This document shows positions 1,677 to 39,912 of a DNA stretch of 60,132 bases, piece by piece (the stretch's first letter is position 1; each line of letters opens with the position of its first letter). The notes beneath the pieces are model-generated. The model was not told the DNA's origin, did not search any database, and saw only the letters and a list, made by a program, of their open reading frames with translations. Source of the stretch: Bacteroides sp. (GTDB lineage Bacteria > Bacteroidota > Bacteroidia > Bacteroidales > Bacteroidaceae). Where the stretch lies: NCBI GenBank assembly GCA_017621035.1, contig JAGATY010000009.1, positions 1-60,132 of the forward strand. The letters run 5' to 3'. The translations under genes were made by a program, and so were the position numbers.

Positions 1677-2591
1677 ATGACGAGAATCCATATAGACACT
1701 TGTCCGCTGTGCGGACACCAAACTTCGGAACAGGCACTGATGTGTGTGGATCGCTATGCTTCGGGCGAAACTTTCCACGTGGAGCGATGTGCCTCTTGCG
1801 GATTCCTCTTCACGCAGGATTTCCCTGCTGAGAGTGAAATAGGTGTCTACTACGAAACCCCTGATTACATTTCTCATACTGATACCAAGCGCGGGCTGAT
1901 GAACACGCTCTACCACTACGTGCGTAACTACATGTTGCACAGAAAGGCACGCTTGGTGGAGCAGGCCTCGGGAGTGAAACGGGGTCGATTGCTGGACATT
2001 GGTACGGGTACCGGCTACTTCCCGGCTGTCATGCAACGGCGGGGATGGGCGGTGCAGGCCATTGAAAAGAGTGAACAGGCCAGAGGATTTGCTCGCGACC
2101 ACTTTGGGTTGCAGGTACATCCCGATGAGGCGCTGATGGAGGGACTGACGGGGGAACGTTTCGACGTCATCACACTGTGGCACGTAATGGAGCATCTGGA
2201 GCATCTGGATGAGGTATGGCAACGTTTGAACGCTTTGCTGACAGACAACGGTGTGCTGATTGTGGCTGTGCCTAATGCGGCTTCGTGGGATGCCAAGCAC
2301 TACGGTGCCGACTGGGCTGCCTATGATGTGCCGCGTCATCTTTGGCACTTTACGCCTGTCTCCATGTTGCAGTGGGGTATGAAGCATGGGTTTGTACCGG
2401 TGAAGCGTCTGCCGATGCCTTTCGACGCCTTCTATGTGTCCATGCTGACCGAGCAACATCTGAAGCATCGTTTTTCGTTTCTGCGCGGATTGGTTACAGG
2501 TACGCTGGCGTGGCTGGCCACATGGGGAGGAAAAGATCGCAGCAGCTCCATGATTTACCTCTTCCGCAAGGATGAAAAGGGCAGGGAATGA
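1677..2591 (+). CDS. Class I SAM-dependent methyltransferase with N-terminal zinc-ribbon-like motif
   Basis: A 304-residue protein starting at ATG 1677; TTG at 1674 is an in-frame alternative. The N-terminus has two Cys pairs, CPLC (about residue 9) and CASC (about residue 39), likely binding zinc. The Rossmann motif I, LLDIGTGTGYF, lies near residue 104, and the post-motif HVMEHLEHLDE near 168. This is the Methyltransf_23-like group that often modifies sugars or small metabolites. The substrate cannot be deduced. It heads a same-strand run leading into ftsX with a 35-base gap, so it may be the first gene of that operon. Confidence 0.8.
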   Translation: MTRIHIDTCPLCGHQTSEQALMCVDRYASGETFHVERCASCGFLFTQDFPAESEIGVYYETPDYISHTDTKRGLMNTLYHYVRNYMLHRKARLVEQASGVKRGRLLDIGTGTGYFPAVMQRRGWAVQAIEKSEQARGFARDHFGLQVHPDEALMEGLTGERFDVITLWHVMEHLEHLDEVWQRLNALLTDNGVLIVAVPNAASWDAKHYGADWAAYDVPRHLWHFTPVSMLQWGMKHGFVPVKRLPMPFDAFYVSMLTEQHLKHRFSFLRGLVTGTLAWLATWGGKDRSSSMIYLFRKDEKGRE

Positions 2592-7012: not shown

Positions 7013-7027
7013 CCGGCGAAACAAGAA

Positions 7028-7073
7028 GTGGAAAGATTTGAGTAGCTTGCAACCACGGAAAAAAATGCTAAAA
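7028..7073 (+). promoter_or_regulatory. SAM-II-like riboswitch in the metK leader
   Basis: GTGG at 7028-7031 pairs with CCAC at 7053-7056. The loop carries GATTTG (7035-7040) and CTTGC (7046-7050), and an A-rich strand leads to TGCTAAAA (7066-7073). TAGC in the loop (7043-7046) is complementary to GCTA (7067-7070), giving the H-type pseudoknot of SAM-II. Order, spacing and conserved bases match the SAM-II consensus as I remember it. It lies 128 bases before the metK start, so it cannot hide the ribosome site directly. A second hairpin, CCTTCG/CGAAGG within about 7090-7128, lies between and may pass on the signal. Confidence 0.82.
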
Positions 7074-7200
7074 CACATCCTTTTCTGAACCTTCGCACGC
7101 TGCTTGGTGGCGCGTTTCTCACGAAGGAGCTTCCCTACTCAGAGCATCTTCCCGACTTGCAGTGTTAATTCTTCATTCTACATTTATAAATTGACAAAGT

Positions 7201-8493
7201 ATGGGATATTTATTCACATCCGAATCGGTGTCTGAGGGACACCCCGACAAAGTGGCGGATCAGATTTCCGACGCTGTGCTTGACAAACTGCTGGCTTACG
7301 ACCCCAGTTCGAAAGTAGCTTGCGAAACGTTGGTGACTACCGGACAGGTGGTGCTGGCAGGAGAGGTGAAAACCAAAGCGTACGTTGACTTGCAACTTAT
7401 CGCACGCGAAGTAATCAACAAGATTGGCTATACCAAAGGTGAGTATATGTTTGAGAGCAACTCGTGTGGTGTGTTGAGCGCCATTCATGAGCAAAGTCCG
7501 GACATTAACCGCGGTGTGGAGCGTCAGGACCCGATGGAACAGGGCGCCGGCGACCAGGGAATGATGTTTGGCTATGCCACGAATGAGACGGAGAACTACA
7601 TGCCGCTGTCGTTAGACCTCTCTCACCGCATTCTGCAGGTGTTGGCCGAGATTCGTCGCGAAGGCAAGCAGATGACCTATCTGCGCCCCGATGCCAAGAG
7701 TCAGGTGACGATTGAGTATGATGACAATAACACGCCCGTCCGCATCGACACCATCGTTGTCTCTACTCAGCACGATGATTTCATTCAACCGACCGATGAT
7801 AGCGAGGCTGCTCAGCTTCGAGCCGATGAGGAGATGCTGGCCATCATTCGCAAGGACGTCATCGAGATATTGATGCCGCGTGTGATTGCCTCCATTCACG
7901 CTGAGAAGGTTTTGGCTCTGTTCAACGACAACATCACTTATCACGTAAATCCCACGGGCAAGTTTGTGATTGGCGGCCCGCACGGTGATACCGGTCTGAC
8001 CGGTCGCAAGATTATTGTGGATACTTACGGTGGAAAGGGTGCTCACGGTGGTGGTGCCTTCTCCGGTAAAGACCCCTCTAAGGTTGACCGCTCGGCTGCT
8101 TATGCGGCACGCCATATTGCCAAGAATCTGGTGGCTGCCGGTGTGGCCGACGAGGTATTGGTGCAGGTTTCTTATGCCATCGGTGTGGCTCGCCCCATCA
8201 ACATCTATGTAAACACTTACGGACGCAGCAACGTGGCCATGAGCGACGGAGAAATCGCTAAGAAGGTGGACGAACTGTTCGACATGCGTCCCAAGGCTAT
8301 CGAAGACCGTCTGAAGCTGCGTAACCCCATCTATCAGGAGACTGCTGCTTACGGACACATGGGTCGTGAACCGCAAGTGGTGACCAAGAGCTTCCGTAGC
8401 CGATACGAAGGCAATAAGGACGTGGAGGTAGAACTCTTCACTTGGGAGAAACTGGATTATGTGGATAAGGTAAAAGCTGCGTTCGGTTTATGA
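7201..8493 (+). CDS. metK: S-adenosylmethionine synthetase MetK
   Basis: A 430-residue enzyme making SAM from methionine and ATP. Signatures are [16 protein letters not shown] near residue 15, [12 protein letters not shown] near 117 and [18 protein letters not shown] near 282. The length matches Bacteroidetes MetK, which is longer than the E. coli form. It has its own promoter and a SAM-II-like aptamer in its leader, so product feedback is likely. The next gene overlaps its stop by four bases (ATGA). Confidence 0.96.
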
Positions 8494-31935: not shown

Positions 31936-32406
31936 GCAAGAAATATCAATCACTTGATTTATAATAGCCTGATTCCGGTAGATGGTATGAAAGACCATCT
32001 ACCGAATTCAGGTTAGCTTATACTCTGCCGCTCATAGCCTGCCGCTTATGACTCATAATTCAAAATCATAATTCAAAATCATAAATCATAACTCATAAAT
32101 CAAAATTCATTCTGAATCCTCCCCCTACCTTCTCCTTTATCTATTCAGTATTGGTTCGATATATCTATGATAACTCCTTGGAATATCAGTATTTTATCTA
32201 ATATATATCGAATCAGTACCGAATGTATAAATAATAGATAAGGGAGCTGGTAGGGCGTGGATATGGGGAGGTTGGCAGGGTGGTGAGGATGAGAATAGGA
32301 TGCGAAGAGGATAAGAAGGGAGTAAAAAGAGAACGAAAAGGAGTCTCAAACGGGCAAATGAATAACTTTTTAAAGCAAATCGAAGCGACTTCTATAAATT
32401 AAACTT
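31936..32406. other. Repeat-rich intergenic region before the R-M operon
   Basis: No gene is credible. It starts with a 19-bp imperfect inverted repeat (31968-31986 with 31994-32012, 17 of 19 pairs) that likely terminates the AlkD-like gene. A stretch of CATAATTCAAAAT-type direct repeats follows (32047-32108), then the long palindromic element at 32118-32271. Confidence 0.6.
32118..32271. repeat. 154-bp palindromic element (MITE-like)
   Basis: The two halves pair over most of their length: CCTCCCC/GGGGAGG outermost, CCCTACC (32123-32129) with GGTAGGG (32249-32255), TTATCTATT (32137-32145) with AATAGATAA (32233-32241), and 32143-32164 with 32203-32224 at 19 of 22 positions. No coding capacity. 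Could be a miniature mobile element or a giant hairpin. Confidence 0.65.
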
Positions 32407-32725
32407 TATCTTTGCCCCTGCCTTCACTTGTAAGCCCCCTGTGCGAGGAGTGGCCGAAGGTACTTTTTTGAGATTATAAACGGAAGCGTTTGTACGATAT
32501 TACCCGCAGTTGGAAATCTCGACAATTTTCATGCTAATAGGGTGATGGCAACAAATGGCTCCCGCTTGTAGTTTATGCGTACAGCCCGTGTTGTATCCAT
32601 ACGCTATAGGCGTGGAGCGTGTTGTCTTATCTATCTTATTAGCATCGGGAGTCGAGACCCGCCAACTGTAGATTGATAAGCACACGCACCACACTTCTTT
32701 TGTATAACCAGAGAACTATTAGCGT
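32407..32725 (+). promoter_or_regulatory. Structured leader of the hsdM operon
   Basis: The promoter TATCTTTG lies at 32407-32414. Just after the predicted start is a hairpin CCTTC (32421-32425)/GAAGG (32456-32460) followed by six T residues, an attenuator-like arrangement. A long rod follows: GCGT.../ACGC (32486-32493 with 32679-32686 approx.), CAGTTGG (32507-32513)/CCAACTG (32662-32668), TCTCGAC (32517-32523)/GTCGAGA (32651-32657), ATGCTAATA (32531-32539)/TATTAGCAT (32637-32645), GCTCC (32558-32562)/GGAGC (32614-32618) and GCGTA/TACGC at the tip. Segment 32531-32540 can instead pair with 32716-32725, which ends at the hsdM start codon. Confidence 0.65.
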
Positions 32726-34231
32726 ATGATTACCGGCGAAATCAAAAACAAGATTGACACTATTTGGGATGCCTTCTGGACGGGCGGTATTACCAACTCT
32801 ATCACGGTGCTTGAGCAGATGACTTACCTCTTCTTCATGAAGATGCTCGACGATGCACAGCGTAAAAAAGAGGCTGCGGCCAGCATCATGGGTGTACCGG
32901 TGAAGGAGCCTGTCTTTGCAGCGGGCAATTGGTTGAATCCCGACAGCGGGCAGGAGGTGCCCTATCAGTCGCTGCGTTGGCACGTCTTCAAGAATACAGA
33001 TGCCGCCGCCATGTTTGCCAACATACGCAACAACGTCTTCCCCTTCATCAAGCATCTGAACGGGGGCAAGGAGAGTGCCTACAGCCGTTTTATGCAGAAC
33101 GCCATCTTTTTGATTCCCACGGAGCGCACGCTGGCCAAGATTGTGGATGGCATAGATGGACTGGACATGAATAATCGCGATGCGATGGGTGATGTCTATG
33201 AGTATGTGCTGGGGAAGATGGCCGCCAGTGGCAATAACGGTCAGTTCCGTACTCCGCGCCACATCATCCGCATGATGGTGGAGCTGATGCGTCCCACGCT
33301 GGGTGATGTGATTTGTGACCCGGCTATGGGTTCGGCCGGCTTCATTGTAGAGAGTGCCAAATACATCCATGAGACCTATGGCAATGAGTTGTTGAAGCGC
33401 GACCATCAGGCACATTTCAAGAGCGGGATGTTTCATGGGTTTGACACCGACCAGACCATGCTGCGCATTGGTGCCATGAATCTGATGCTGCATGGGGTGG
33501 ACAATCCCAACATTGTCTACCGCGACTCACTCTCCACAGATAATAGTGATGCCGACTGCTACACCCTCTGCCTGGCCAATCCGCCCTTTGCCGGTACGCT
33601 GGACAAGGAGGCTGTCAGCAAGTCGTTGCTTTCCATTGCCTCCACCACCAAAACAGAACTGCTTTTTGTGGCCCTCTTTGTGCGGATGCTTCAGGCGGGC
33701 GGACGCTGTGCAAGCATTGTGCCCGACGGTGTACTGTTTGGCAACAGCAAGGCGCACAAGGCTTTGCGTAAAGAACTGATAGACAACCAGCGTCTGCAGG
33801 CCGTCATCTCCATGCCGAGCGGTGTGTTCCAGCCCTATTCGGGTGTCTCCACCGCCATCTTGATATTCACCAAGACCAACAGTGGCGGCACAGACCGTGT
33901 TTGGTTCTACGACATGCGCGCCGACGGTTACAGCCTGGACCAGAAACGTACCGAGGTGGCCGAAAATGATATTCCCGATGTGGCTTATCGCTTCCACCAC
34001 CTGGAAGAAGAACAGACTCGTACCCGCAAGGAACAGAGCTTCTTAGTGCCGGTGGATGAGATTCGCGAGAAGGATTATGACCTTTCTATGAACAAGTATA
34101 AGGAGGTGGAGCGCGAGGTAGTCATATACGACAAGCCCGCGGTAATTTTCAGCCGGATAGAGTCCTTGGAGCAGGAGATAGGAGCCGCCCTGAAAGAGTT
34201 TAAGGAGAAGTTCTTGGAGGACGAAGTATGA
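32726..34231 (+). CDS. hsdM: Type I restriction-modification methyltransferase subunit HsdM
   Basis: A 501-residue adenine methyltransferase. The N-terminal helical domain (MITGEIKNKIDTIWDAFW) is that of HsdM_N. The SAM-binding motif DPAMGSAGFIVES lies near residue 199 and the catalytic NPPF motif near 287 (LANPPFAGTLDK). FRTPRHIIRMMVEL precedes motif I, as usual. With HsdS it forms the modification enzyme. A structured leader precedes it and hsdS overlaps its stop by four bases. Confidence 0.95.
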   Translation: MITGEIKNKIDTIWDAFWTGGITNSITVLEQMTYLFFMKMLDDAQRKKEAAASIMGVPVKEPVFAAGNWLNPDSGQEVPYQSLRWHVFKNTDAAAMFANIRNNVFPFIKHLNGGKESAYSRFMQNAIFLIPTERTLAKIVDGIDGLDMNNRDAMGDVYEYVLGKMAASGNNGQFRTPRHIIRMMVELMRPTLGDVICDPAMGSAGFIVESAKYIHETYGNELLKRDHQAHFKSGMFHGFDTDQTMLRIGAMNLMLHGVDNPNIVYRDSLSTDNSDADCYTLCLANPPFAGTLDKEAVSKSLLSIASTTKTELLFVALFVRMLQAGGRCASIVPDGVLFGNSKAHKALRKELIDNQRLQAVISMPSGVFQPYSGVSTAILIFTKTNSGGTDRVWFYDMRADGYSLDQKRTEVAENDIPDVAYRFHHLEEEQTRTRKEQSFLVPVDEIREKDYDLSMNKYKEVEREVVIYDKPAVIFSRIESLEQEIGAALKEFKEKFLEDEV

Positions 34232-35367
34232 AAAGAGATGGTTGGAGTGTGAAGAGGTTGGGGGAGGTGTGCGAGATTTTTAATGGTCGAAACCAGAAGA
34301 AAGTTGAGGATATAAATGGTAAATATCCTATTTATGGTAGTGGTGGTATCATGGGATATGCCAATGATTATATTTGTAGAGCTGGTACTACTATTATAGG
34401 TAGGAAAGGCTCTATAAATAAACCGCTTTATGTAGATAAGGACTTTTGGAATGTAGATACAGCTTTTGGATTGCAACCCAAAGATTGTTGCCATAGTCGT
34501 TTCTTGTATTATCTCTGTAGAAGTATTGATTTTACAAGATATGACAAAGGAGTTACTATTCCAAGTTTGGTAAAATCAGATTTATTACAAATACCGGTAA
34601 GTCTTCCACCCCTCCCCGAGCAATCCCTTATCGTTGAAGAACTTGACCGGCTGAGTAGCATCCTTGAAAAGAAACGTCAGCAACTGAGTGACCTGGATAA
34701 TCTTGCCCAATCCATCTTTTATGAGATGTTTGGGGACCCGGTGAGGAATGAGAAGGGGTGGGAGGTGAAACCTCTAAAAGAAAATGTGTATGAAATGTTT
34801 CTAGGGCCTTTTGGAAGTGCACTTAAAGTGGATTCATATGTGGATAGGGTAGATGCGTATTGCATGGTTTATGAGCAAAAGCACGCCATACAAGGGTCTT
34901 TGGATGTCACGACTCATTACATTAGTAAAGAGAAATATGAATCGTTGAAACGATTTGAAGTGAGAGCTGGGGATTTTATAATGAGTTGTAGAGGAACTAT
35001 TGGCAAATTGTATCAGTTGCCTTTAAATGCCCCCATGGGTATTATTCATCCTTCACTAATGAAAATTCGGGTAAAGGAAGATGCTTATCATTCTATGTAT
35101 TTTAAATTTATGCTTGTAAAAGTTGTTGCAAATGAAAGTACAAATGGAAATTGTGTGCAAATGGCTATTACTGCAAAAGAATTGGGAAATAGAGAATTGT
35201 CTCTTCCTCCTCTCCCCCTTCAGCACCTCTTTGCCCAAAAGGTGGAGGCGATAGAGCAGGAGAAAGCACTTATCAAGCAATCCATCAAGGAGGTGCAGGA
35301 GCTGCTGGATAGTAGGATGGAGGAGTATTTTGGGGGAGTTGAGGAGAAAACAAGCTTCATTCGGTGA
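34228..35367 (+). CDS. hsdS: Type I restriction-modification specificity subunit HsdS
   Basis: A 379-residue DNA-recognition subunit with two target-recognition domains (about 5-135 and 178-330), each ending in a SLPPLPEQ- or SLPPLPLQ-type boundary and followed by a coiled-coil spacer (EELDRLSSILEKKRQQLSDL; QKVEAIEQEKALIKQ). The recognition domains are AT-rich relative to hsdM, typical of exchanged specificity modules. Only one hsdS is present here, with no partner for inversion within the window. It is translationally coupled to hsdM. Confidence 0.93.
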   Translation: MKRDGWSVKRLGEVCEIFNGRNQKKVEDINGKYPIYGSGGIMGYANDYICRAGTTIIGRKGSINKPLYVDKDFWNVDTAFGLQPKDCCHSRFLYYLCRSIDFTRYDKGVTIPSLVKSDLLQIPVSLPPLPEQSLIVEELDRLSSILEKKRQQLSDLDNLAQSIFYEMFGDPVRNEKGWEVKPLKENVYEMFLGPFGSALKVDSYVDRVDAYCMVYEQKHAIQGSLDVTTHYISKEKYESLKRFEVRAGDFIMSCRGTIGKLYQLPLNAPMGIIHPSLMKIRVKEDAYHSMYFKFMLVKVVANESTNGNCVQMAITAKELGNRELSLPPLPLQHLFAQKVEAIEQEKALIKQSIKEVQELLDSRMEEYFGGVEEKTSFIR

Positions 35368-35481: not shown

Positions 35482-36573
35482 ATGTATTTGCATGAAAGAG
35501 AAAACTGGTGGAAGTTCACCTTCGATAGCAATAGGGTGATGACAGAACTGGGCAAAGTGCGTGCCAAGCAAGGACTGATGCTGGGGCGAATGTCTTCTTT
35601 GGGATTCGACTTTCAGGAAGACGCCTTGCTTAGTACCCTTTCGCAGGAACTGGTCAGCTCGTCAGAGATAGAAGGAGAGACCCTTGACCGACAACAGGTA
35701 CGCTCGTCCATTGCCCGCAGGTTGGGTATCGAAACGGCTGGTATGGTGGGGACTTCTCGCTATGTGGAAGGAGTGGTGGAGATGCTACTCGATGCTACTC
35801 AGCGGTATGCGGCTCCTTTGACGGACGAACGCTTGTACGGTTGGCACAACGTACTTTTCCCTTCGGGTATGAGCGGGCTTTACCGGATAGAGGTAGCCCG
35901 TTACCGCAGTGGAGAAATGCAAGTGGTGTCGGGAGCAATGGGAAAGGAAAAAGTACACTACGAAGCCCCGAAACCCGAGCGTGTTCCCCAAGAGATGCAG
36001 CGGTTCATCGATTGGGTAAATGCAGAAGTGGAGATGGACGAAGTGGTGAAAGCGGCTATAGCCCACCTCTGGTTTGTTACCATCCATCCGTTTGATGACG
36101 GTAACGGACGTATTGCCCGTGCCCTGACTGATATGATACTGGCCAGAAGTGAGCAGACATCAAAACGCTTTTACAGCATGTCTGCTGAAATCAAACTGAT
36201 GCGGGCAGAGTATTACGAAGTGCTGGAGCGTACGCAACGCGGGAAGGGAGACATTACAGAATGGTTGCTTTGGTTCTTCCGGTGCTTTGATGCGGCTCTG
36301 GATTCTACGGAAGAGAGCCTTTCGGCTGTGCTTGCCAAAGCCCGCTATTGGGAACACTTCTCCAAGGAGGAGGTGAATGAGCGCCAGCGTAAACTCATCA
36401 ACTTGCAGTTTGACGGCTTCTTTGGCAAGCTGACTTCCGGCAAGTGGGCAAAGATAGGGAAATGTTCGTCGGACACAGCATTGAACGACATCAAGAACCT
36501 TTTAAATAAAGGTATGCTGGTGAAGAATGGTGAGGGAGGACGAAGCACCAACTATTCGCTGCCCGATATATAA
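35482..36573 (+). CDS. Fic-family AMP-transferase with DUF4172 N-terminal domain
   Basis: A 363-residue Fic protein. The catalytic motif HPFDDGNGRIARAL (about 196-209) is intact (HPFxxGNGRxxR). An upstream SSSEIEGE (about 63-70) fits the (S/T)xxxE(G/N) inhibitory motif, so the protein carries its own inhibitory helix. The N-terminus (YLHERENWWKFTFDSNRV) is the DUF4172 domain and the C-terminus ends in a winged-helix-like segment (LNDIKNLLNKGMLVKNGEGGRSTNYSL). It lies between hsdS and hsdR. Fic enzymes transfer AMP or similar groups onto proteins; the target is unknown. Confidence 0.9.
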   Translation: MYLHERENWWKFTFDSNRVMTELGKVRAKQGLMLGRMSSLGFDFQEDALLSTLSQELVSSSEIEGETLDRQQVRSSIARRLGIETAGMVGTSRYVEGVVEMLLDATQRYAAPLTDERLYGWHNVLFPSGMSGLYRIEVARYRSGEMQVVSGAMGKEKVHYEAPKPERVPQEMQRFIDWVNAEVEMDEVVKAAIAHLWFVTIHPFDDGNGRIARALTDMILARSEQTSKRFYSMSAEIKLMRAEYYEVLERTQRGKGDITEWLLWFFRCFDAALDSTEESLSAVLAKARYWEHFSKEEVNERQRKLINLQFDGFFGKLTSGKWAKIGKCSSDTALNDIKNLLNKGMLVKNGEGGRSTNYSLPDI

Positions 36574-36603: not shown

Positions 36604-39600
36604 ATGAAGAACTTCGATTACTTGAAAAACTATGAACACCTGTCCGACCTGTATGCTTACTGCCATATGGCGGAGCTGAAGCAGGCAAGTGATCCGGAGA
36701 AGTCGGCACTGAATGCACGTAAGGCACTGGAGTGGCTGGTGAGGAACATCTACCGGATGAAGAACATAGAGGTGAGTGACCGGACATCGCTCTACACGCT
36801 GGTAGACGGAGAGCCGTTCAGGAGGTTTGTGGGGGATGACAGGCTGATGATGGCGGTGCACTACATTCGCAAAGTGGGAAACAAGGCGGCACACGCGGCT
36901 GTACCCACCAAGAGTGAGACCTACTTTGCAGTGTTCAACCTATACAATCTTACGGGAGCAGTACTGAAGAAGTTGCTGGTGGTGGATGACTTCCCGCCTT
37001 TTGACCCTGAGCTGCTGAAGCGCAAGCGGATAATGGTGGTGGAACCCAAGCAAGAACCGGCAGCAGACGAGCGCTTTGTGGCCAGCATTGATACTGCGAA
37101 AATTGTAGACAAGCCCATAGAGGTTCGGCCTACCTCTTTCAGTGAGGCAGAGACGCGTCGGTACTTCATAGACCAACTGCTGCAGGAGGCCGGCTGGGAG
37201 GTGCTGACAGAGCGGGGTGCCATTGTTCCCCTGAAGGCTTGCATAGAGATAAAGATAGAGGGCATGCCCACCCATAGTGAGGGTGGTTTTGCCGACTATG
37301 TACTCTTTGGAGCATCGGGTAAGCCCCTGGCTGTGGTAGAGGCAAAGAGGACAAGTGTTGACCTGGAGGCCGGAAAGGTGCAGGCTCAGCTCTATGCCGA
37401 CTGCCTGGAGCGACAGTATGGTGTGCGTCCTGTTATCTACATCACCAATGGCTATGAGACAGCAGTCAATGACGGGCTGGGCTATCCCTGGCGACCTTTA
37501 CTAGGCTATCACACGGCTGAAGAGCTGGAACTGCTGATTCAGCGTCGGGGCAGGAGTAACATTACCAATCTGCAGATAAGTGACGCCATCACCAACCGTG
37601 AGTATCAGAAGCGTGCCATCCGCACCGTGTGTGAGCGCTTCAACAAGAGACACCGGCGCACGCTGCTAGTGATGGCTACCGGTACGGGCAAGACCCGTGT
37701 GGCCATCTCGCTGACAGAGGTGCTGAAGCGTAATAACTGGGTGAAGAATGTACTCTTTCTGGCAGACCGCACCTCGCTGGTGAAGCAGGCAGCCAAGAAC
37801 TTTGCCAAGTTGCTACCGGCAGAGACACTCTGCATACTGTCAGAGGAGAGCAAACCGGACATGAAGGCACGCATCATGTTTAGCACCTATCAGACTATGA
37901 TAAACTACATAGACTGTGACAGCAAGGAGTTCAGCGTGGGGCGTTTTGACCTTATCATTGTGGATGAGGCACATCGCTCAGTGTTTGGCAAGTACACAGC
38001 CATCTTTGACTACTTCGACAGTCTGCTTGTGGGACTGACAGCCACTCCGCGGGATGAGGTGGATCGTAACACCTATGACCTGTTCCAGATGGATGAGGCA
38101 GACACCTTCTCTTACGAGTTGGATGAGGCGGTAGCTGACGGTTTTCTGGCTCCCTACAACGCCTTGAAGCGCGGTACGCAGTTGCTGAAAGAGGGCATCT
38201 GCTATGACAAACTGAACAGGGAGGAGAAGCTGCAGCTGGAAACCGTGTGGCAGTATGAGCAGGCACGCCGGGCTACAGACATCGACGGTGACTATCATCG
38301 GGACATAGAGAGCAATGAACTGTTCAGGTACATCTTTAATGAAGACACCATAGACAAGGTACTGCAAGACCTGATGGAGCATGGCCTGCGGGTGCAGAGT
38401 GGGGAGCGCATCGGGAAGAGCATCATCTTCGGTTACAATCACAGGCATGCCGAGCTGATAGTAGAACGGTTTGGCAGGCTCTATCCGGAATACGGTGCAG
38501 AGTTTTGTGTCTTGATAGATAACTACGTGAACTATGCACAGAGCCTGATTGACAGTTTTGAGGTGAGAGACAAACTGCCGCAGATAGCTGTGTCGGTGGA
38601 TATGCTGGACACCGGCATCGACGTGCCTGATGTGCTGAATCTGGTATTCTTTAAGCCGGTACATTCTAAGATAAAATTCTTACAGATGATAGGACGCGGC
38701 ACCCGTTTGTCGGCAGACATCTTTGGGGTAGGGCAGCATAAGGAGTGCTTCCAGATATTCGACTGGTGTAATAATTTTGAGTTCTTCAGTCTGCACCCTA
38801 ACGGGCAGGAGGCACAGCAGAACCTTTCTCTGACAGAGCGTTTATTCTGTTTGCGCACAGACATTGCTTTTGAACTGCAACACGCTTCTTATCAAGAAGA
38901 TGCATTTGCCAAGAATCTGCATAACGAGCTGAAAAGAGCACTTTGCGAGCAGGTTCAGGCGTTGCAGGAGACCCATGTGTCCGTGCGTCAGCATTTGGCT
39001 GTTGTCAATAAATATCGCAAGGCAGAAAGCTGGCAATATCTCTCTCCGGTGGATAGGGAAGAGGTGAAGAAAGAGATTCCCGCTCTGCTTGTCAGGAACA
39101 CGACAGATGAGAGTGCCAAGAAGTTTGACGTGCTGATGCTGAACATTGAACTGTCTAAGCTGGCTACAGAGATAAATGCGGTGAGAAGTCAGAATAAAGT
39201 GGTGCAGATAGCCGGCCTGTTGCAAGAGCGAGCCAGCATTCCGCAGGTGGCAGATAAGATAAAGACAATTAACGAGTTGACATTACCCTCATTCTGGAAA
39301 GCTCCCACCTTGCAACGCCTGGAGCAGGTGAGAATTGAACTGCGCGACCTGATAAAGTTTCTGACAAGTGGCGGAAACAAGACCTTCACGCTGAACATTG
39401 CTGACGAGGTGACGGAGACGGGAGAGGCAGAATCCTTCATGCCTACCAGTTACAAGCAGCGGGTGATAGATTACCTGGCCGAGAATCGAGACCTGCCGGT
39501 TATCCGGAAGATTGTGGGCGTGGAGCAGCTGGAGCATCGGGATATTGCAGAGCTGGAGCGCATCTTCTGGAAAGAGTTGGGCACCAAAGAGGAGTATCAG

Positions 39601-39912
39601 CGCTATGTGCAGAGCGGCAAGATGCTTTGTGGTGACCACGTAGCAGCCTTTATCCGGGCACAAGTGGGGGTGGACAGAGGCGTGGCACTGCAGAAGTTCT
39701 CAGATTACCTTTCTAACCATACGCTGAACAGTATGCAGGAGGAGTATCTGAAAACCATTGTCACTTATGTCTGTCAGAATGGGGACATCACGGCAGAGAC
39801 CATTGTCAATGAGCCGCCCTTTGATGAGTTTGAGTGGATTGAAACCTTTGGGCAGCACTTTGTCAGCGTGCGCAAGTATGTGGAGGAATTGCACCGTGCC
39901 ATCATAGCGTAA
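36604..39912 (+). CDS. hsdR: Type I restriction endonuclease subunit HsdR with N-terminal DUF4145
   Basis: A 1102-residue translocase-nuclease. The first 130 residues are helical and match the DUF4145 domain (SALNARKALEWLVRNIYR). The nuclease core is GGFADYVLF...VVEAKR (about 225-250; D-ExK type). Helicase motif I is MATGTGKTRV (about 358) and motif II DEAHRS (about 455). Motif VI-like IGRGTRLS lies near 697. The C-terminal 300 residues are helical and would contact HsdM. It follows fic by 30 bases with no promoter seen, so the two are cotranscribed. Confidence 0.94.
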   Translation: MKNFDYLKNYEHLSDLYAYCHMAELKQASDPEKSALNARKALEWLVRNIYRMKNIEVSDRTSLYTLVDGEPFRRFVGDDRLMMAVHYIRKVGNKAAHAAVPTKSETYFAVFNLYNLTGAVLKKLLVVDDFPPFDPELLKRKRIMVVEPKQEPAADERFVASIDTAKIVDKPIEVRPTSFSEAETRRYFIDQLLQEAGWEVLTERGAIVPLKACIEIKIEGMPTHSEGGFADYVLFGASGKPLAVVEAKRTSVDLEAGKVQAQLYADCLERQYGVRPVIYITNGYETAVNDGLGYPWRPLLGYHTAEELELLIQRRGRSNITNLQISDAITNREYQKRAIRTVCERFNKRHRRTLLVMATGTGKTRVAISLTEVLKRNNWVKNVLFLADRTSLVKQAAKNFAKLLPAETLCILSEESKPDMKARIMFSTYQTMINYIDCDSKEFSVGRFDLIIVDEAHRSVFGKYTAIFDYFDSLLVGLTATPRDEVDRNTYDLFQMDEADTFSYELDEAVADGFLAPYNALKRGTQLLKEGICYDKLNREEKLQLETVWQYEQARRATDIDGDYHRDIESNELFRYIFNEDTIDKVLQDLMEHGLRVQSGERIGKSIIFGYNHRHAELIVERFGRLYPEYGAEFCVLIDNYVNYAQSLIDSFEVRDKLPQIAVSVDMLDTGIDVPDVLNLVFFKPVHSKIKFLQMIGRGTRLSADIFGVGQHKECFQIFDWCNNFEFFSLHPNGQEAQQNLSLTERLFCLRTDIAFELQHASYQEDAFAKNLHNELKRALCEQVQALQETHVSVRQHLAVVNKYRKAESWQYLSPVDREEVKKEIPALLVRNTTDESAKKFDVLMLNIELSKLATEINAVRSQNKVVQIAGLLQERASIPQVADKIKTINELTLPSFWKAPTLQRLEQVRIELRDLIKFLTSGGNKTFTLNIADEVTETGEAESFMPTSYKQRVIDYLAENRDLPVIRKIVGVEQLEHRDIAELERIFWKELGTKEEYQRYVQSGKMLCGDHVAAFIRAQVGVDRGVALQKFSDYLSNHTLNSMQEEYLKTIVTYVCQNGDITAETIVNEPPFDEFEWIETFGQHFVSVRKYVEELHRAIIA

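Follow-up and report, generated by a model that had tools for sequence, protein, structure and literature searches.

The stretch of DNA analyzed here, referred to as the window, comprises 60,132 nucleotides (nt) of contig JAGATY010000009.1 from Bacteroides sp. (assembly GCA_017621035.1). Among other genes, it encodes hsdM (32726..34231, forward strand; HsdM_N and N6_Mtase in the domain scan), followed by hsdS (34228-35367), a Fic-domain gene (DUF4172 and Fic, 35482-36573) and hsdR (36604-39912). The subject of this analysis is the structured leader located in front of hsdM, all features of which lie on the forward strand. It begins with a promoter -7 box, TATCTTTG (32407..32414), which belongs by sequence to the Bacteroidetes TAnnTTTG type, the consensus stated in PMC7366714. 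The box is followed by a terminator-like 5' hairpin with a T-run, denoted P0 (32421..32470; arms 32421-32429 and 32454-32460, then CTTTTTTG at 32463-32470), and by a long rod that spans approximately 32496 to 32672. The promoter, the hairpin with its T-run and the nested rod arms (for example, CAGTTGG/CCAACTG, TCTCGAC/GTCGAGA and GCTCC/GGAGC) had been described in an initial annotation of this DNA and are indeed present at these places. By eye, P0 and its T-run are also found in the other leaders of the window clade (L003, L012 and L013), so that these leaders have two terminator-like hairpins in series before the gene.

Downstream of P0, the leader is a chain of strands that can pair in two ways, here denoted state I and state II. 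Strand A (32540..32565) pairs with strand B (32609..32631) to form the rod in state I, or with the upstream strands Z (32480..32491) and Q5 in state II, the two-hairpin fold, in which B pairs instead with strand C (32675..32694) to yield a terminator-like hairpin directly followed by the T-run TTCTTTTGT (32695..32703). Strands Q5 and N5 together occupy 32496..32513; in state II, the start of A is bound by Q5, and in state I, N5 pairs with N3 (CCAACTG, 32662..32668). Between these strands and A lie hairpin H1 (32513..32530), the loop strand of which, K1 (TCTCGAC, 32517-32523), is complementary to K2 (GTCGAGA, 32651..32657), and the variable strand R5 (32531..32539), which covaries with R3 (32637..32645) as helix 7. 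The apical hairpin (32579..32606) includes CATACGCTA at 32598-32606, which is complementary to the hsdM start context TAGCGTATG (32720..32728, including the ATG).

The comparative evidence comes from 80 homologous leader elements, 75 of which were retained after five (L047 at 3831, L072, L076, L097 and L111) were dropped because of length or absence of the K2 motif, although the K2 variant of L097 still appears, by eye, competent to pair. The aligned set consists of 61 rows; the letters GCGTTT, GATATTA and ATCTSGACAAT, which were fixed in the search pattern, are constant by selection in these rows. Element L046 was left out of the fold comparison and of set A3, in which six end coordinates were extended by hand; set A4 lacks 11 of the 61 rows, and set A2 of downstream proteins lacks 3 of 76 (L059, L076 and L077).

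Both folds are conserved among the homologues by covariation, and they are mutually exclusive, given that A:B and B:C compete for strand B. The pairing of 32531-32540 with 32637-32645, which had been noticed in the window, does form a helix within the rod, and its homologous counterpart, helix 7, covaries strongly, with changes on both sides in 10 of 13 pairs. In the case of K1:K2, the script demanded GTCSAGA as K2, so that only the central position of this pairing is informative; there, 38 of the 61 rows have G-C and the other 23 have C-G, with no mismatches. By eye, divergent copies likewise differ in the sequence of K1 and K2 and keep the complementarity. The B:C duplex consists of 24 pairs in the window (-27.8 kcal/mol); in 74 of 75 homologues, it reaches 13 pairs or more, L046 being the exception. 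These observations support the view that the leader is an RNA switch whose pairings exclude one another. According to the covariation, the rod competes with the pairing of strand C with B, followed by the T-run, with Z, in front of the rod, able to pair with A; the initial annotation had proposed such a switch but had placed its alternative pairing in the ten bases before the ATG.

By calculated energy, state I is the stronger fold in most of the elements. The region 32415-32760 folds at -116.8 kcal/mol (z -5.7), a stability not reached by any of 100 shuffled sequences. When forced, state II is 5.5 +/- 4.7 kcal/mol weaker than state I and is the lower one in only 5 of 61 rows; in the window leader, the difference is 13.3 kcal/mol. 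The picture differs during transcription. At the point where B is complete, neither hairpin 1 nor A:B clearly dominates (0.57 and 0.68), with hairpin 1 favored in 21 of 61 rows, including the window row (0.60 vs 0.38), whereas once R3 has been transcribed, hairpin 1 is ahead in none of the 61. Because the balance exists at B and is lost after R3, the point of decision would be governed by kinetics or by a factor bound to hairpin 1. In many Bacteroides copies, strand C also has a partner further downstream, identified by eye (GTTCCC/GGGAAC), to which GCCAAC/GTTGGC would add a pseudoknot, and the swap test of C with this tail yields z -4.0; no such downstream partner of C was seen in the window leader.

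The initially proposed second pairing, between 32531-32540 and the ten bases directly upstream of the hsdM ATG (32716-32725), exists as complementarity in the window (10 pairs, one of them G-U, -12.3 kcal/mol), but the same segments in the three closest leaders (L003/L011, L012 and L013) form runs of at most 3-4 pairs, with energies between -0.9 and -4.8 kcal/mol. Because it is not kept in these relatives, nothing in the data lifts the pairing above chance (the chance level of this pairing itself was not computed), and a switch operating through it was rejected. The search for compensatory changes in homologous leaders refuted this particular pairing and left the switch itself standing. The apical complementarity between CATACGCTA and TAGCGTATG, also recovered as inverted repeat I5, is kept in all four window-clade leaders, with Watson-Crick runs of 9, 9, 8 and 12 that were reached by 24, 19, 83 and 0 of 2000 shuffles, respectively. 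This apical pairing with the start codon might be a rival of, or an addition to, the B:C switch, which four related leaders cannot prove.

Transcription signals flank most of the elements. In 64 of the 80 homologues, a TAnnTTTG box precedes the element by at most 110 nt, compared with 6.2 expected from single-base shuffling, and at least five T within the 8 nt after C are found in 66 of 75, compared with 11% of background windows. In 74 of 80 elements, a same-strand open reading frame begins at most 480 nt from the GCGTTT motif; two further frames lie beyond 480 nt, and the remaining four elements lack one, in part owing to the end of the locus. The element therefore combines the features by which an attenuator was judged, namely, a promoter and leader before a gene on the same strand, a hairpin and then a T-run before that gene, and an exclusive antiterminator conserved by covariation (A:B against B:C), and we class it as a new family of leader RNAs, probably of the attenuator type. 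Given that relatives in front of many different genes of gut bacteria keep both folds, the leader appears to be a widespread on/off device of gene control that has not been catalogued.

Of 344 genomes sampled from the order Bacteroidales, 85 contain the element, with a maximum of 7 matches per genome, and one genome of the genus carries 6 copies. Cultured strains with copies include Bacteroides clarus YIT 12056 and Parabacteroides gordonii MS-1. The source genome of the window yields 8 model matches, with scores from 78 to 30 bits, and one match by BLAST with the core. A further model search returned 48 matches, and removal of 9 weaker ones on the strand opposite to a stronger match left 39 copies, a set that was not thinned and includes the near-alike pairs L141/L142 and L161/L163. 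Some leaders occur in tandem, approximately 80-215 nt apart (1289-1422 and 1501-1623 in L141, 266-388 and 470-604 in L142, 1132-1287 and 1501-1650 in L143), an arrangement also known for some riboswitches.

The genes behind the leader are diverse. The script assigned a downstream frame to 76 of the 80 elements, the choice being uncertain for some, and 73 downstream proteins were scanned, resulting in 47 Pfam families; among the 25 families listed, the most common is Lipocalin_4, in 4 proteins, followed by N6_Mtase, MmeI_N, ECF sigma and LRR_5, with 2 proteins each. In L129, for example, a lipocalin gene lies 3' of the element. This spread of families over the 73 proteins indicates no common ligand. 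The PADLOC tallies include type I and IIG methylases and an HKD plus Snf2 type, with one or two members each, and these types fit the window clade, although the tally itself lists no member names. Among ten order-level frames, two are defense-like, an N6 methylase (L153) and an HKD plus Snf2-type protein (L160); four match outer-membrane, DUF3575, WD40-like or HTH families, and four match nothing. An hsdM-specific element was accordingly rejected, most of the examined homologues preceding other genes, and the earlier suggestion of a switch that times methylase expression would account for one application, at most, of a device of general use. In genome G005, three large proteins (L014, L015 and L016) have a common leader and a similar N-terminal stretch (MKKT-CF...) and then diverge, as judged by eye, as if the leader and the signal peptide were a shared cassette.

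We know of several systems that resemble the element in part. The strand chains of trp-type attenuators (1:2, 2:3, 3:4) share with it a leader after a promoter box, a chain of exclusive helices and a last hairpin with a T-run. Unlike these attenuators, both folds of the element span the whole leader, the K1/K2 loop-loop complementarity is conserved and the downstream genes are unrelated. Second-messenger riboswitches are conserved structured leaders in front of many genes, and riboswitches with a terminator platform have two exclusive folds as well, but in the element, there is no separation into aptamer and platform: the switching strands run throughout, and neither a candidate ligand nor an Rfam match was found. 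Specifically, Rfam 15 gave no match over the window element at gathering thresholds, nor any above gathering over the element in 28 homologous loci (9 at E <=1, 19 at E <=0.5). Weak overlaps below threshold, such as those of MIR838 and S15 in L025, were taken as chance. The cis-regulatory motifs DUF805 and DUF805b (RF03081 and RF02914) do occur between the element and the next gene (L148, 1692-1757; L033, 1161-1196, reverse strand; weakly in L159, 1391-1426, reverse strand), but these are short (68 and 35 positions), and their models match only downstream, leaving the element itself uncovered. Fremin and Bhatt (2021, PMC8040213) describe four palindromic candidates that come largely or exclusively from Bacteroidetes, HMP2_4205, HMP2_1065, HMP2_1032 and HMP_4078. 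These span 80-132 bp, lie near TPR, RuvA, TonB or phage genes and include three with predicted terminators; compared by description only, they could overlap parts of the element. No described family of this kind was found in the open-access literature, the search of which covered articles without supplements.

Several observations concern the surroundings of the leaders. An imperfect inverted repeat with 46-nt arms that are 74% complementary lies upstream of the leader promoter (window 32116-32262), and a SAM-II riboswitch (Rfam, 63.6 bits vs a gathering threshold of 44) is located at 7022-7081 of the window, forward strand, before the frame 7201-8493. In L041, a match to the Rfam small RNA BTnc060 (1770-1984, reverse strand) lies approximately 230 nt upstream of the element. 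Genes for recombinases of approximately 211 amino acids, which we take to be of the serine type by their look, are located upstream of the element in L129 (2175-2810), L131 (3167-3805), L035, L066, L074 and L104; in two plasmid records, the recombinase is annotated as 'recombinase family protein'. A search with CATACGCTATAGGCGTGG for further window-clade leaders gave six matches; the five outside the window lie within a coding frame, presumably metK, and were discarded.

Several other explanations deserve consideration. The leader might act as a translational lock, governing access to the start codon through either complementarity to the hsdM start. Both occur in the window, and the apical one persists in the window clade even though the preceding spacer has diverged, but the other is missing in all three relatives, whereas the apical runs vary in length among only four related leaders, with no compensatory pair changes seen, and part of CATACGCTA is also paired within the apical stem in both folds; we consider such a lock improbable. 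The promoter box, the terminator-like end and the very stable rod would also suit a stand-alone, trans-acting small RNA that mostly ends at C (at most about 290 nt, from box to C in the window), with only incidental read-through. The presence of a same-strand frame nearby in most cases argues against this possibility, and two exclusive folds are hard to account for in a plain small RNA, making it quite improbable. Very improbable, in our estimate, is a promoter-bearing selfish element acting at the DNA level, such as a MITE-like repeat or a recombination or inversion site, that spreads before accessory genes. Its multiple copies per genome, the unrelated downstream genes, the recombinase genes in the six Bacteroides loci and a stretch resembling the element in a fecal phage record (a BLAST match to 30% of the query; the only partial match in phage records, compared with 5 in plasmid records) would fit such an origin. 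However, copies within the same genome are strongly diverged and have kept their pairings, the T-run directly follows C, the promoter box precedes Z, and three exact patterns had zero matches in viral contigs.

The leader might instead be a ligand-free, constitutively bistable device: co-transcriptional folding would split transcripts at random, yielding a fixed or noisy fraction of read-through, that is, bet hedging. That hairpin 1 and A:B are almost equally favored upon completion of B is compatible with this scenario, as is the variation of K1 and K2 under preserved complementarity, which argues against recognition of the loops by sequence, and the surface and defense genes among the downstream genes might be linked to bet hedging. 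Nevertheless, upkeep of both whole-leader folds across an order would seem costly for a mere fraction-setter, and we regard this explanation as rather unlikely. A further possibility, with a probability that we put somewhat short of even, is a new, widespread class of switching leader RNAs in Bacteroidales, with many copies per genome, located before unrelated accessory genes including those for restriction-modification and defense, in which one trans signal, be it a small molecule, a second messenger or an RNA-binding protein, would set a common on/off state.

Whole expression platforms are usually too variable to be aligned, so that the element is a natural test case for covariation across such platforms. 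For restriction-modification, the leader would provide a tangible starting point for understanding how expression of the methylase is adjusted upon entry into a new host. If both folds are held by evolution, the leader would represent a regulon-wide layer of RNA control in dominant gut bacteria, the signal for which could be searched for directly.
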